Positions 1-6,003 of a stretch of 64,000 bases of DNA are shown here, piece by piece (the first letter of the stretch is position 1; each line of letters begins with the position of its first letter). Made by a program: the position numbers and the translations under genes. The notes under the pieces were generated by a model. That model searched no databases, was not told where the DNA came from, and was given only the letters and a program-made list of their open reading frames with translations. Where the stretch lies: the NCBI RefSeq assembly GCF_003287355.1, contig NZ_QMIM01000019.1, forward strand, positions 1 through 64,000. Direction: 5' to 3'. This DNA comes from Halorubrum sp. 48-1-W. Lineage in GTDB: Archaea > Halobacteriota > Halobacteria > Halobacteriales > Haloferacaceae.

Positions 1-3
1 TAG

Positions 4-2088
4 ACACACCTTCAGCAAGCAGACGCCTCAACTAACCGGCTTTGTGATGTACTGATAATATCCGACTATATTGAGCAACTTTCTGGTCTACTTTTTCTCA
101 AGGCGTGTCAGGAAAGTCCTCGAATTAATCAAGATGACTTAAATATCCCTGAGTCTGCTCGTTGGGAACAGTTGGTATCGAATAAAGTTCGGAGGGAGCA
201 GAGTCTTCTGGCTACTTACGATGAGATGATTGATCAGCTCCAGACCGACGGAGAATTAGCCAGAAAAGCATTCAACAATTTCAACAATAAGTTTGGTAGC
301 GAGACGACACTTAAAAACACAATCGATGATATTGAATCTCTTGATTTCTGGGACCAATACGAGGGCTATTCGGACTTCTTCGGAGACGCGTATGAATTTC
401 TTCTAGAGAAGTACGCCGATAAGGCAGATGGTGCGGGCGAATATTTCACCCCTCGACCACTGATCCACGCGATGGTAAACGTCGTTGATCCTGGGTATAC
501 TGAGTCGATATATGATCCTGCTAGTGGAACAAACGGTTTTCTCATTGAGGCTTACAATCATGTTGGTGATAAAACCGCTGGTGAGATCAGAGGACAGTCT
601 CGCCAATTTTTAGAAACGCCTGATGATGGCCCTCGTTCGTATGCTGAACAACTTACCGGCCGAGAATTGACCAGTCAGACTTACCGTCTGGGGCTAATGA
701 ATCTCATACTTCACGACATTGACCCCACCGAGATGGAATCGTTAAGAGGCAATTCACTCACACGTAGTGTTGATCAAGAATATGATGTAGTGCTGGCAAA
801 CCCTCCCTATGGTGGAAACGGCTCTGACAAATTTACTGGGGCATGGGCAGACAGTCCCGCGCCGGAGACGAACTTTCTACAGCTTATCATGCGATCTTTA
901 TCTAAGAATGGGCGAGCAGCGGTAATCGTTCCTGAAGGAATTCTATTTAGAGGTGGTGCGGAACAATCTGTTCGGGAGCGACTTTTAGAACAGTATAATC
1001 TTGATTGTGTCCTTGTTCTTCCCGAAAGCTCCTTCCATCCGTATGCGGAGGTAGATGCGAATGTGCTCTTTTTCGAACGCGATTCTGAGGGTACAGATGA
1101 AGTCTGGTATTATGATATGCGCTCGGACACAGAAAAAATAAAGGAATCAAATCCTCTCACTAAAAATCATTTTGAGGAATTCGTTCAGAATTTTGAGGGA
1201 GAAGAGAATCGTCGCGATACAGAACATTTCTTCACAGTCCCAGAAAGCGATATTAAATCAAATGATTATGATCTGAATCATACACAATATAAGGAATACG
1301 CCGCTAGTCAGTTCCGCCATCCGGTGGAAGTGGCAGAGCAAATCGAAGATACACTTTCTACTTTCCAAAGTGTTACTCAGCCACTTGTAACAGGGATTCC
1401 GTTTAGTGGTAAAGGTGAGACAACAGCAAATATCCCTAAAGAAACAAATCTGCCCAACGGCTGGAGCTTGGAGGAAGTATCAAACATTTGTGAGGTTAAC
1501 CGAACTAATTATAACCTCGAGAGAGATTACCCGGATCACCAATTTAAATACGTTAGTGTATCCGATGTCGATGAAGAATCTGGAGAAATATACAATCATG
1601 AAACAATAACTGGTTCTACTTCTCCCAGTCGGGCAAAGAGGGTAATGGCGGAAGAAGATACAATTGTATCTACCGTACGACCGTACCTGAAGGGGTTTGC
1701 TAAAGTACCTGATGAATACGATGGCCACATCTGTTCAACCGCATTCGCAGTTTTAACACCAACCGCCGCAATTGACTCAGATTATTTATTCTATGCTGTT
1801 CGCTCACCGATGTTCGTTGAACAACTCAGAAGAGAACAGCGTGGTGCGGCATATCCTGCAGTCGGTATCCAGGATGTTAAAGATGCCAAAATCCCAGTTC
1901 CGGATATTGACGTTCAGAAACAAGTAGTATCACAATATACTACGTACGAGGATGGAATACACGGTGCCCGTAAACGAGTGCGAGAGCTTCAAGAGTTATT
2001 TGATGAGTACGAGAATTCTATTCTGTCATATCTACTCCAAGGAGATCTCAGTGTAACTGATAGCCAAAGTGATCTAAAAAATGACTAA
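4..2088 (+). CDS. hsdM: Type I restriction-modification methylase fused to specificity domain (HsdM-HsdS), 5' end unclear
   Basis: This is an N6-adenine DNA methyltransferase with its own target-recognition domain. Counting from the TTG at 172, SAM motif I (DPASGTNGFL) is at residues 115-124 and the catalytic NPPY at 210-213 (bases 799-810). From about residue 427 the sequence becomes a single HsdS-type target-recognition domain plus helical spacer, so M and S are one polypeptide; two copies would probably pair to read a symmetric site. The frame is open from base 4 and the extra residues resemble the usual HsdM helical N-terminus (LSGLLFLKACQE), so TTG 172 is probably not the true start. The codon before, TAG at 1-3, is in frame, and I see no ATG, GTG or TTG between 4 and 171. 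The gene may be 5'-broken or start by an unusual route. Its TAA lies inside the start of hsdR (8-base overlap). Confidence 0.9.
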   Translation, partial: THLQQADASTNRLCDVLIISDYIEQLSGLLFLKACQESPRINQDDLNIPESARWEQLVSNKVRREQSLLATYDEMIDQLQTDGELARKAFNNFNNKFGSETTLKNTIDDIESLDFWDQYEGYSDFFGDAYEFLLEKYADKADGAGEYFTPRPLIHAMVNVVDPGYTESIYDPASGTNGFLIEAYNHVGDKTAGEIRGQSRQFLETPDDGPRSYAEQLTGRELTSQTYRLGLMNLILHDIDPTEMESLRGNSLTRSVDQEYDVVLANPPYGGNGSDKFTGAWADSPAPETNFLQLIMRSLSKNGRAAVIVPEGILFRGGAEQSVRERLLEQYNLDCVLVLPESSFHPYAEVDANVLFFERDSEGTDEVWYYDMRSDTEKIKESNPLTKNHFEEFVQNFEGEENRRDTEHFFTVPESDIKSNDYDLNHTQYKEYAASQFRHPVEVAEQIEDTLSTFQSVTQPLVTGIPFSGKGETTANIPKETNLPNGWSLEEVSNICEVNRTNYNLERDYPDHQFKYVSVSDVDEESGEIYNHETITGSTSPSRAKRVMAEEDTIVSTVRPYLKGFAKVPDEYDGHICSTAFAVLTPTAAIDSDYLFYAVRSPMFVEQLRREQRGAAYPAVGIQDVKDAKIPVPDIDVQKQVVSQYTTYEDGIHGARKRVRELQELFDEYENSILSYLLQGDLSVTDSQSDLKND

Positions 2089-5005
2089 CGAGAAACTCCC
2101 ACCTGAACAGCGAGCAAGAGTACAGATCAACCAACAGTTAGAATCTGCTGATTGGGAAAAAATTGGAGAATATGTTAGCTATGAAGATATAACTGATCTG
2201 AATAAAACCGGATTCATTGAAGAACTTGGTACTGAAACTGGACCGGTCGATTATGGACTAATATTTGAAGGGAATCTTATAGCGCTAATTGAATCAAAAT
2301 CCACCAATACAAACGCATCAGGACATTTTCAGCAAGTCGAACGATATTCGAGATCTGTTGGTGGATCGTACGCCATTGATGGGGGTTATGGTGTTCCAAT
2401 TGCCTATGTAGCCACCGGCGCCGAGACACATCTCTATGATTTCCGTAATCAAGCACCTGCTTCTCGATCGATCTCCACTTTTCACACTCCTGGGGGTTTG
2501 GAACGTCTTGTAACACGAGAATATGAGAAAGCACATGGGTGGCTCCAAAACCACTCTGCGTCTAAATTCGACCCCGACCTTTGGGATCATCAGGAGCAGT
2601 GTGTGGACACAGTTGACGAGAACTTGCGTAACCGAAAGCGTCGGATGCTAATCCAAATGGCGACTGGAGCAGGAAAAACTCGGACTGCTCAGGCGATTAC
2701 ATACCGTCTTCTTCAATCAGGATTTGCGGACCGTATTCTGTTCGTGCCGGATACTCGAAAGCTCGCAGAAGATACCTATGACTCATTTTCAGAGTATGAT
2801 CCTACTGGTGCTCCTCCATTTCGTGACCGCTATCGTATCGTAAATCTCGAAGAAGAGGAGTCTGACCGATTAAAAAGGGGGGAAGTAGTGATTACCACTT
2901 TACAAAAAATGTACCATCTACTGGACAATGATGATGTGGACTTCCACCCTGGTGACTTTGATGTAATAATTTCTGATGAGTGTCATCGGTCGGTCTACGA
3001 AGATGAGGGCTATGGAAGTGTCTTTCAACAATTTGATGCCGTAGAGATTGGCCTTACAGCAACACCAACTGAACGCACAGTCGCTCGTTTCGACAATAAC
3101 CTTATTTTTGAATATGATTACGAAGATGCGGTTTCTGATGGGCATGTCGTTCCGTTTCAGATGTACGCTCTTGAGACAGAGATCACTATGAGTGGGGTAA
3201 TTGACGATGAAACCGGAGAGTACTACCCACCAGACGCGCTTGGGAGTGAGGTACTTGTTCCAGATACTCATCGGAAAGTTGGTCAAGAGATTCGTAATAA
3301 AATGGAGGATGAAAACGAACTCACACTTATTTTTGCGAGAAATGATAACCATGCCACTCGAATTGTACAAGACCTACGAGAGACCGTGTTCTCTGACAAA
3401 CCTCCCGATTACGTTCAGAAAATCACCTATAAATCTGACCGTCCAAATGATGTTCTAGCTCGGTTCTCTGATCCATACGATCCATCACCAGCCATAGCAG
3501 TGACTGTCCAAATGGTTAGTACCGGAGTTGACATTCGCCCGTTGAAGAATGTTGTACTACTTAACCCGGTGAAATCTCCAGTGTTATTTAATCAGATGTT
3601 AGGTAGGGGGACGCGGGTTTATGACAATAAGACCCATTTCAATATCTACGACTGTGTGGGAGCTCTGGAGTATTTTGAGGGGGTACCGCCTTTCGGAACG
3701 CTAGACTATGGAACCCCTGCGAGCAGTAATGGATCCTCGGACGAAAAGCACGATCCCGATAAAGACGAAGGCCCCGCTATTGTTGATGTCCCCGACGAAG
3801 TACTTCGTTCAGAACCAGTCTTTCCGACAGAAACGGGCGAGCGACTTACTGCTGAGGGATTCCGTAAAGCATTCCGAAGTGATGTTCGTGCTGAAGCTGA
3901 AAGGCTCAAACAAGACATAGACGAGGCATCAGATATTGAGACGGCAAATAGCTCTCTTCGAACACATTTACAGAATCTCTCTCAATACTACGTACCTATC
4001 TTTCTCAAAAAAGCATATGAACCTATCACAGAAGGTAGAGATCATTCACTTATCGATTTTGTGAATGAAGCATTAACTGGAAGGCTTCCAACATTTGACG
4101 AGAGAGTTGAACATACTCGGACTGTGTTAAACGAATATGAGTTCACCCAGGTAGAGCAAGATTATCTTGAACTTATGTCTGCTACTGCGGAACCACCGAA
4201 TGGAATTTCTAGTTCTGACTTCTATGATCCTCCGATTAGCAACATAGGTGGGCTCAAGAGGGCGAAACAGGAGTTTACCACCCTTTCTCCGCAAGAATTG
4301 ATTGATGAATTTAGATCCAGTCTTTCCAGCCTGATTGGTAATACCATCTCTGATCCTGATAACCTAGAAAAGATCCTCGAATCTAATCGCGTGAGAGAGA
4401 GACTTAGAGGAGAAATTCTGAACGAATTTGGTACAGATGAACTAGGTGTAAACGAGGATCAACTTGGCCGGATCCTTGAAAATTGCGTTGAGGTTGAAAT
4501 ACACAAAACAGGTGCCGCTGAGGAGTTTGCTTTACATGAATTTGCGGTTCAAGACGTAATGACTGGAACCTCTATTAGGAATACAGAACGAAAACCGCCG
4601 GTTACAGCCCGAATAAACGTTAGTGATGCGATCGTTGCTGGTGTCTCACTATTATCTGGAAATATTACTACTGATCCGACATCAGTACTGATTGCCCTGT
4701 ATATTGTAAAAAGTGTAGCACGCCCTAATGTAGAGAAAGTCACGGAACATCAAGCACTTGCCTATGCTGTAGGATGGGAATCGACCGAGCGAGGAGAGTT
4801 TATTTATAAACAAGATCTAATAAACAAAATCACTTCCCTAAGCAGTACCAGTAGTGGAGTCGATAAAATGGACGAAGATGCCGCCGAGAAAGCTATACAA
4901 GAATTAGAACGTATGGGTTGTATCTCGATGGAAGGTACAGCTGAGGGAATTATAATTTGGTTTGAAGATGAGTTCAATGTGGAATATACTCTGGATGATA
5001 TCTAA
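2081..5005 (+). CDS. hsdR: Type I restriction endonuclease subunit HsdR
   Basis: This is the motor and nuclease subunit of the type I system, which translocates DNA with ATP and cuts away from the recognition site. The N-terminal PD-(D/E)xK nuclease is visible as D58 followed by E71-S-K73. The superfamily 2 helicase core follows: Walker A (GAGKT, about 195-200), the DECH box at 299-302, LTATPT near 326 and a QMLGRGTRV motif VI near 505-513. The C-terminal third, to residue 974, is the usual helical region that contacts the methylase. ATG 2081 overlaps the end of the M-S gene, which indicates coupled translation. All catalytic motifs look intact, so restriction would depend on whether the upstream methylase is intact. 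Base composition is far less GC-rich than the chromosome beyond 11.3 kb. Confidence 0.93.
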   Translation: MTNEKLPPEQRARVQINQQLESADWEKIGEYVSYEDITDLNKTGFIEELGTETGPVDYGLIFEGNLIALIESKSTNTNASGHFQQVERYSRSVGGSYAIDGGYGVPIAYVATGAETHLYDFRNQAPASRSISTFHTPGGLERLVTREYEKAHGWLQNHSASKFDPDLWDHQEQCVDTVDENLRNRKRRMLIQMATGAGKTRTAQAITYRLLQSGFADRILFVPDTRKLAEDTYDSFSEYDPTGAPPFRDRYRIVNLEEEESDRLKRGEVVITTLQKMYHLLDNDDVDFHPGDFDVIISDECHRSVYEDEGYGSVFQQFDAVEIGLTATPTERTVARFDNNLIFEYDYEDAVSDGHVVPFQMYALETEITMSGVIDDETGEYYPPDALGSEVLVPDTHRKVGQEIRNKMEDENELTLIFARNDNHATRIVQDLRETVFSDKPPDYVQKITYKSDRPNDVLARFSDPYDPSPAIAVTVQMVSTGVDIRPLKNVVLLNPVKSPVLFNQMLGRGTRVYDNKTHFNIYDCVGALEYFEGVPPFGTLDYGTPASSNGSSDEKHDPDKDEGPAIVDVPDEVLRSEPVFPTETGERLTAEGFRKAFRSDVRAEAERLKQDIDEASDIETANSSLRTHLQNLSQYYVPIFLKKAYEPITEGRDHSLIDFVNEALTGRLPTFDERVEHTRTVLNEYEFTQVEQDYLELMSATAEPPNGISSSDFYDPPISNIGGLKRAKQEFTTLSPQELIDEFRSSLSSLIGNTISDPDNLEKILESNRVRERLRGEILNEFGTDELGVNEDQLGRILENCVEVEIHKTGAAEEFALHEFAVQDVMTGTSIRNTERKPPVTARINVSDAIVAGVSLLSGNITTDPTSVLIALYIVKSVARPNVEKVTEHQALAYAVGWESTERGEFIYKQDLINKITSLSSTSSGVDKMDEDAAEKAIQELERMGCISMEGTAEGIIIWFEDEFNVEYTLDDI

Positions 5006-5034
5006 TTATATTTCAATATTCAATACCACAAATA

Positions 5035-5583
5035 ATGGTTGAAATTGTCAATGTGATTGGATCTGGTTTGTTAGACGTTGAATTTGACTTGGAGAGAGTC
5101 GCTGCCGACATCGGTTCCATCGCTGAGTACAACCCTGACAAGTATCCTGGCATGTATCTAAGGTTTGCTGAGGATGCTCCCCTCGTCACGGTCTATCGAA
5201 CTGGGAAATACATCGTTACCGGGGCAGACTCAGAAGAGGAGGCATATTCAATACGGAAACGCCTTCTCAACCTCCTTGCTGATAACGAAATGATCCCCAC
5301 TTCTGAGGACGAGTGGTTTCGAATTCAGAACTTCGTCTGTACAGCAGAGTTGGGGGAATCGTTGAATCTCAATGCGCTCACAATCGGTCTCGGTCTCGAA
5401 AATACCGAATACGAGCCTGAGCAGTTCCCTGGATTGATTTACCGGCCGTCTGGCGCTGATTGTGTTGTTCTACTCTTCGCTTCAGGTCGTGTTGTGATTA
5501 CAGGCAGCCGAGACCTCGATGTAGCGAAGGAGACATTCGCAGTGGTCCAGGACGAAGTATCGGATATACTTGCTCTCGACTAG
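5035..5583 (+). CDS. tbp: TATA-box-binding protein paralogue linked to the restriction locus
   Basis: At 182 residues this is a complete archaeal TBP made of two direct repeats, about residues 3-90 and 96-182. Repeat 2 is highly canonical (LGLENTEYEPEQFPGLIYR, then a VLLFASGRVVITG strand). Repeat 1 is more diverged (PDKYPGMYLRF, TGKYIVTGA). TBP binds the promoter TATA box and recruits TFB and RNA polymerase. Haloarchaea commonly carry several TBPs that can select different promoters. It starts 29 bases after the hsdR stop on the same strand, so it may be co-transcribed with the restriction genes. Placement inside an island next to an integrase suggests it travels with the island and could serve island promoters; that role is inference. 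Confidence 0.93.
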   Translation: MVEIVNVIGSGLLDVEFDLERVAADIGSIAEYNPDKYPGMYLRFAEDAPLVTVYRTGKYIVTGADSEEEAYSIRKRLLNLLADNEMIPTSEDEWFRIQNFVCTAELGESLNLNALTIGLGLENTEYEPEQFPGLIYRPSGADCVVLLFASGRVVITGSRDLDVAKETFAVVQDEVSDILALD

Positions 5584-5691
5584 CGGATAGATCAAGAGAC
5601 TTTCTTAGGTGTACGTTCCTCCAAATGGGTCGGGGTAGTAGCAGAAACACGCTTCCAAAACCCATCTCCGACACTTTCTTTCTCTAAGTAA

Positions 5692-6003
5692 TTACAAAAA
5701 CTTCACAACGTCTACTCCCGTTCGAGTTAGCCCATAAAGCCGATACTGCTGTCTATCTGGAGTTAGGACTCGAACCAATGCTGGAAGCTCTCCATTAGGC
5801 CCGCCGTGCTGTAATTGCTTCAAGTGATACCTCACAGTTTCAAGTTCAACCCCCCAAGAATCAGCAAAGTCATTCGTGTTCTTCGGAGCCTCAGACAAAG
5901 TGGTGAGAACATCAACACGTCGATCAGATGCCTTCACCCAAGCAAGCAGCTCGTACTTCTCGGGATCGTCCCACTCGTACACTGGAAGCGACGGTTCGGC
6001 CAT
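5692..6003 (-). CDS. Winged-helix transcriptional regulator (ArsR-like)
   Basis: This 103-residue protein has a helix-turn-helix core at about 30-62 (RRVDVLTTLSEAPKNTNDFA, then WGVELETVRYHLKQL), typical of haloarchaeal winged-helix repressors. The acidic N-terminus (YEWDDPEKYELLAWVKAS) is common in this group. It has no metal-binding cysteines. It is convergent with the tbp gene and points at the end of the restriction operon. The ATG at 6003 is the only sensible start. It may regulate island genes, but no operator is recognisable. Confidence 0.78.
   Translation of the reverse strand: MAEPSLPVYEWDDPEKYELLAWVKASDRRVDVLTTLSEAPKNTNDFADSWGVELETVRYHLKQLQHGGPNGELPALVRVLTPDRQQYRLYGLTRTGVDVVKFL

Follow-up and report, generated by a model that had tools for sequence, protein, structure and literature searches.

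A branch of haloarchaeal TATA-binding proteins (TBPs) is encoded almost only beside DNA-methylation-based defence systems, two viruses included. Because this branch is nearly confined to defence loci, a core transcription factor seems to have been co-opted by restriction systems. Multiple haloarchaeal TBPs have been proposed to act like sigma factors. The window, by which we mean the whole 64,000-nucleotide stretch of DNA analysed here, carries one member of the branch at a type I restriction-modification (RM) locus, and the original prediction held that a mobile defence locus had brought its own TBP. This was borne out by recurrence across Halobacteriales loci: the arrangement is not confined to one strain; it recurs widely in the 293 genomes searched and is seen on chromosomes, plasmids and viruses. 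If the recruitment is true, mobile defence modules, those of viruses among them, took up a general transcription factor as a component that travels with them.

The window locus joins a type I RM operon to a TBP gene

At the window locus, hsdR and the TBP gene stand head to tail with exactly 29 bases between them; both open reading frames are intact, and frames and Pfam matches agree with the arrangement as first described. The modification-specificity (M-S) gene overlaps hsdR by 8 bases. In a single frame it matched N6_Mtase (4.9e-71) and one Methylase_S domain (2.4e-5) in Pfam, and MTase_I (2.9e-100) and Specificity_I in PADLOC. HsdR contains the Pfam domains ResIII, SWI2_SNF2 and EcoEI_R_C and resembles EcoAI/FtnUII-like HsdR (4.2e-69). 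The M, S and R genes of a type I system are all present, but the M gene is no longer intact, since the end of an insertion sequence (IS) lies inside it at the contig edge.

Table 1. Coordinates of features at and near the window locus.
Feature	Position	Strand	Evidence or remark
ISH3-family insertion sequence end	1..55 (about)		Contig edge; interrupts M-S gene
Type I modification-specificity (M-S) fusion, one target-recognition domain, ~40 N-terminal aa missing	56..2088	+	Pfam, PADLOC
HsdR, type I restriction subunit, 974 aa, intact	2081..5005	+	Pfam, EcoAI/FtnUII-like HsdR match
TBP, 182 aa, two repeats, Tyr37/Tyr54 + Phe131/Phe148 + EPEQFPG stirrup	5035..5583	+	Pfam, alignments, AlphaFold2, Foldseek
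Winged-helix-like gene, 103 aa, facing TBP	5692..6003	-	Weak HVO_A0261_N/HTH_20 matches (Pfam)
Island tyrosine recombinase (integrase) with zinc-ribbon segment	8316..9710	-	Phage_integrase 7.2e-18, Zn_Ribbon_1

Position 1 of the window is a contig end, and the ~55 bases from there on are 98% identical to the ISH3B ends of Halobacterium plasmids; the same IS-end sequence recurs at 8 other contig ends of the genome (88-100%). The M reading frame is continuous with the IS end and lacks a start codon; its profile match sets in about 40 residues late, which implies that N-terminal residues are missing. Taken together, these observations indicate that the M-S gene was interrupted by an ISH3-type element. 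The M-S fusion of the original prediction therefore stands as a single frame but not as a whole gene, and TTG 172 was rejected as its start. IS damage is recurrent in TBP-RM loci; in Halomicrobium katesii (L013:8401-9627), a transposase-like gene separates the M gene from an HsdS C-terminal fragment, close ahead of the TBP gene.

The locus is AT-rich island DNA, as had been noted, with a GC content of 0.44 compared to ~0.70 in the neighbouring chromosome from 12 kb onward. No tRNA attachment site or known RNA family was found in the first 12-14 kb of the window. The winged-helix-like gene does face the TBP gene, but it was rejected as a conserved TBP partner, being a singleton cluster among related loci; it matched a winged-helix protein of the virus HJTV-2 weakly and over 36 residues only. 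This gene probably lies outside the module.

The window protein is a non-canonical TBP under purifying selection

The window TBP matched the Pfam TBP profile in two stretches (2.4e-42). AlphaFold2 predicted a confident saddle (pLDDT 93.7), and the closest structure to the predicted fold was the TBP of M. jannaschii (Foldseek, 2z8u, 1.7e-16); the two repeats and, in the model, the saddle fold of the family (PF00352) are both there. The roles of residues in DNA intercalation and in contact with TFB are taken from established TBP-DNA and TBP-TFB structures. The intercalating Phe pairs of TBP are also described in PMC4230888. In the window protein only the C-terminal pair of the two is retained, and Tyr residues occupy the N-terminal pair. 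Alignments showed that both central Asn residues and the TFB-contact EPEQFPG motif are retained, this repeat-2 stirrup being invariant across 15 aligned relatives. Judged by predicted fold and sequence, the protein is a member of the TBP family, but a non-canonical one.

The same signature marks the non-canonical TBPs as a class. Most are without the N-terminal Phe pair and commonly have Tyr-Tyr instead; nearly all retain the C-terminal Phe pair and the TFB-contact Glu pair. An RM gene lies within 3 kb of 39 of the 40 TBPs that have Tyr-Tyr. Pairwise dN/dS was about 0.1 (0.06-0.16), and the branch is thus under strong purifying selection. Elsewhere in the genome of the window, there is a short TBP-like protein with one TBP stretch (L009, G000:C66:112011-112241; 145-codon open frame).

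Non-canonical TBPs are linked to RM genes across Halobacteriales

The window TBP was used as query against 293 Halobacteriales genomes, with matches ranked by similarity, and 79 distinct neighbourhoods were retrieved, in which genes were called by amino-acid composition (with our own caller and no annotation pipeline). TBPs were classed by their intercalating residues, a few rows by the tree, and counted as linked if an RM gene lay within 3 kb. Relatives of the window TBP were sporadic, at 45-81% identity, with housekeeping TBPs lower, at about 41-45%. When the whole phylum was searched, matches above 190 bits were confined to Halobacteriales, and no TBP of the window subfamily was found outside that order above this score.

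An RM gene lay within 3 kb of 56 of the 62 non-canonical TBPs, compared to 2 of the 29 canonical TBPs (Fisher p 3.8e-15; the loci were chosen for their similarity to the window TBP and lack phylogenetic independence). Both of the flagged canonical TBPs stand beside one family of THUMP-domain methyltransferases, which does not concern DNA methylation. The six non-canonical TBPs scored as unlinked are those of L180, L186, L178 and L122 and two in L179, counted by locus, and three of the six proved linked on inspection: L180 has an MjaI-type RM system, L186 a PglZ gene, and L178 shares the gene clusters of L186. L122 is a 3-kb contig, and the two L179 TBPs are without a recognised RM link. One of the latter loci (L179:11224-12323) encodes a 277-aa TBP with an extra N-terminal domain resembling the adjoining 90-aa gene, with no defence gene recognised nearby.

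The tree agrees with this division. Canonical TBPs form a single clade with 100/100 support, and the nearest relatives of the window TBP fall outside it together with TbpC. Mapped onto the tree, the linkage label required 8 changes, compared to 28 in shuffles. Approached from the restriction gene, the outcome was the same: close HsdR relatives occur in three genomes, each of which has a TBP beside the RM genes. Nearly all non-canonical TBPs are linked to DNA-methylation defence, across unrelated RM types.

The TBP is gained and exchanged among different RM systems

The partner systems comprise type I, type IIG, type II, DISARM/BREX-like and BREX systems. The neighbours include type I M-S-R operons, single IIG-like enzymes, and type II pairs such as a PADLOC REase_II with a methyltransferase in Halorientalis, a NotI-like system in L165 and an MjaI-like one. 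In what we term type B, a large Eco57I-type methyltransferase is combined with an SNF2 helicase (DrmMI- and BrxHII/DrmD-like in PADLOC). An annotated BREX cluster of Haloarcula halophila has the TBP gene flanked by an Eco57I-domain methylase gene on one side and PglZ on the other. The tailed haloviruses HRTV-9 and HJTV-2 have RM genes with an adjoining TBP gene, and gp39 of HRTV-9 carries the Tyr pair.

The position of the TBP gene within the operon varies between loci. An RM gene lies directly upstream on the same strand for 26 of the 62 non-canonical TBPs, with an overlap or zero gap in 16 of these, and another 10 are divergent. Several loci have a second TBP type that is more diverged; in type I loci it often precedes hsdM by 24-71 bases, the place of a regulator gene. 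The genome of the window itself has a second non-canonical TBP gene on contig C49 (L180, 9568-11949), where genes for an MjaI-type restriction enzyme and an N4/N6 methyltransferase follow after 55 bases. A type II RM locus of Halorientalis regularis (L011:5978-10549) has three TBPs: the methyltransferase and the restriction enzyme are each preceded by one, and the third stands beside them.

Presence of the TBP is optional. Where type-B helicases are at least 74% alike, 13 of 24 systems have the TBP among the matches listed, and of the 11 places with the type I HsdR family of L136, 9 have an adjoining TBP. Different RM types are found with almost the same TBP, the sequences parting at the start of the TBP gene (clades A and B), and the TBP thus behaves as an add-on cassette. 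These results show modular gain of the TBP and its exchange among RM systems.

TbpC of Halobacterium belongs to the same branch

In Halobacterium salinarum R1 (PHS4) and NRC-1 (pNRC200), a TBP with the Tyr pair ends a methyltransferase-helicase-TBP operon with a 4-base overlap, and in the tree it groups with type-B TBPs. We infer that this protein is TbpC because it lacks the N-terminal Phe pair and because of the replicon that carries it. The window TBP is like TbpC in having lost the N-terminal Phe pair, kept the C-terminal pair and fallen outside the canonical clade. Earlier work described TbpC as nonfunctional or as having a specialised role of unknown nature, and its deletion in NRC-1 gave no apparent phenotype; unlike the setting found here, an RM context is absent from its descriptions in the searched passages of these papers (Becker et al. 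2014, PMC4230888, and Coker and DasSarma 2007, PMC2121645, for the role; PMC2121645 for the deletion). At the homologous NRC-1 locus the methyltransferase gene carries an ISH27-2 element of the ISH3 family, and in strain PHH1 an IS interrupts tbpC itself (PMC4390858). As members of an RM-bound branch, TbpC and its relatives acquire a concrete role that can be tested.

Promoters and TFB

The original prediction had also suggested that the TBP could act as a private factor for the promoters of its own island, or could time restriction after entry. The first half of this idea, a mobile locus that brings a TBP, was upheld, but the need for a private promoter is opposed by a comparison of two type-B operons. 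L210 is without a TBP and has the same promoter DNA as the TBP-bearing L158, and among the matches listed no TBP of the window subfamily was found in its genome (G046). The TBP is thus unnecessary for the sequence of that type-B promoter to persist. Among the RM-linked TBP loci, no promoter motif common to the different RM types was found; the operon promoter of the window lies off the contig.

A palindrome, AGTCTAAGTAAAGACTA, adjoins or overlaps the TATA region in L157 (2165-2181), L135, L149, L153, L158, L161 and L210, upstream of a 63-69 aa gene (AbrB-like by our own sequence reading) that heads the methyltransferase-helicase operons. It occurs in type B only, independently of the presence of the TBP, and is absent from the window. 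This palindrome is probably an autoregulatory operator.

No TFB gene was found on contigs C4 or C49, which hold the two RM-linked TBPs of the genome. A private TFB beside the TBP was therefore rejected, and any initiation complex would need the TFBs of the host.

Possible roles of the RM-linked TBP

We lean toward the reading that the TBP is a dedicated, system-independent regulator of DNA-methylation defence modules, which we regard as somewhat probable; specificity for its own promoter would be only one form of such regulation. This grading weighs a partner common to unrelated enzymes, with intact TFB contacts, against the promoter comparisons above. The RM-linked TBP would join a host TFB at module promoters, and perhaps elsewhere too. 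There the Tyr-for-Phe replacement in its N-terminal repeat would alter how tightly, or with what preference, it binds the downstream half of the TATA box, and would thereby set how strongly or when the RM genes are expressed. Such a role would parallel that of C proteins in bacterial RM systems and of WYL regulators such as BrxR in BREX, built here from a basal factor. The combination of an altered N-terminal repeat with retained TFB-contact Glu and C-terminal Phe pairs favours this reading, as does the diverged second TBP ahead of hsdM in several type I loci. It is weakened by the promoter that L210 and L158 share, by the absence of a promoter motif common to the RM types, by the varying operon position of the TBP gene, by the type-B systems, about half of which are without the TBP among the matches listed, and by the tbpC deletion (PMC2121645), although the methyltransferase gene of NRC-1 is IS-split.

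Alternatively, the defence TBPs could form an alternative pre-initiation complex, exchanged as a cassette among RM systems, that transcribes defence modules independently of host TBPs, perhaps as activator-inhibitor pairs where two TBP types share an operon; this is a tentative reading and rather doubtful.

It is distinctly unlikely that the TBP acts within the enzymes as a subunit that bends DNA and so aids the restriction or methylation complex in binding, bending or translocating it. In many operons, -4 overlaps point to translation coupled with that of the helicase or R gene, and the C-terminal DNA-binding residues are intact, as such a subunit might have, but the partners are enzymes of unrelated types (type I, IIG, DrmMI/BrxHII-like pairs, MjaI- and NotI-like type II, and BREX), which a regulator fits better than an enzyme subunit does. 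Moreover, many close homologues of the same enzymes are without a TBP, and the conserved TFB-contact residues would be of no use to an enzyme subunit. We consider it improbable to a like degree that the TBP is an antiviral effector or sensor, which would rival the normal TBP on viral promoters or serve as a decoy or guard against viral proteins that attack TBP or transcription. Its location in defence loci accords with this, and an altered N-terminal repeat with an intact TFB surface could poison an initiation complex; however, two viruses carry the TBP beside RM genes of their own, and almost no copies stand away from DNA-methylation genes. That the TBP is a passenger or recombination anchor, persisting where RM modules recombine and with no role in RM, is very improbable, for although its optional presence and the junction at the start of near-identical TBPs with different partners would suit it, the strong purifying selection, the conserved non-canonical signature with overlapping operon structure, and the canonical TBPs, equally usable as anchors yet without RM linkage, speak against it.

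Comparison with known systems

A TBP-RM linkage goes unmentioned in the papers searched by term, which deal with RM in haloarchaea and in archaea at large, the diversity of BREX, the TBPs of haloarchaea and tailed haloviruses. TBPs are known from the conflict systems TOTE and TALON, where, as cited in PMC12458937, they accompany an effector together with TPR and OB/cold-shock proteins; TALON occurs mainly in Chloroflexota. The systems here are alike in encoding a TBP in a defence operon and differ in that their enzymes are DNA-methylation-based RM enzymes; among the window genes to ~11 kb, no TPR and OB/cold-shock partner gene was recognised by Pfam. C proteins are small helix-turn-helix regulators that adjoin type II RM genes and have operator boxes (PMC3874152). 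By analogy, the TBP gene of the window is a small putative regulator gene that adjoins RM genes and would control their expression on entry, but its product has a predicted TBP fold rather than a helix-turn-helix, and among the RM-linked loci no operator common to the RM types was found. The branch suggests that RM may be regulated in archaea without the C proteins of bacteria. The virus-borne genes (gp39/gp40 of HRTV-9 and gp41 of HJTV-2) are like the window locus in that a TBP adjoins RM genes, and differ in the enzymes, which are not type I: one virus has a type IIG enzyme and the other an N4-cytosine methyltransferase with Eco29kI.
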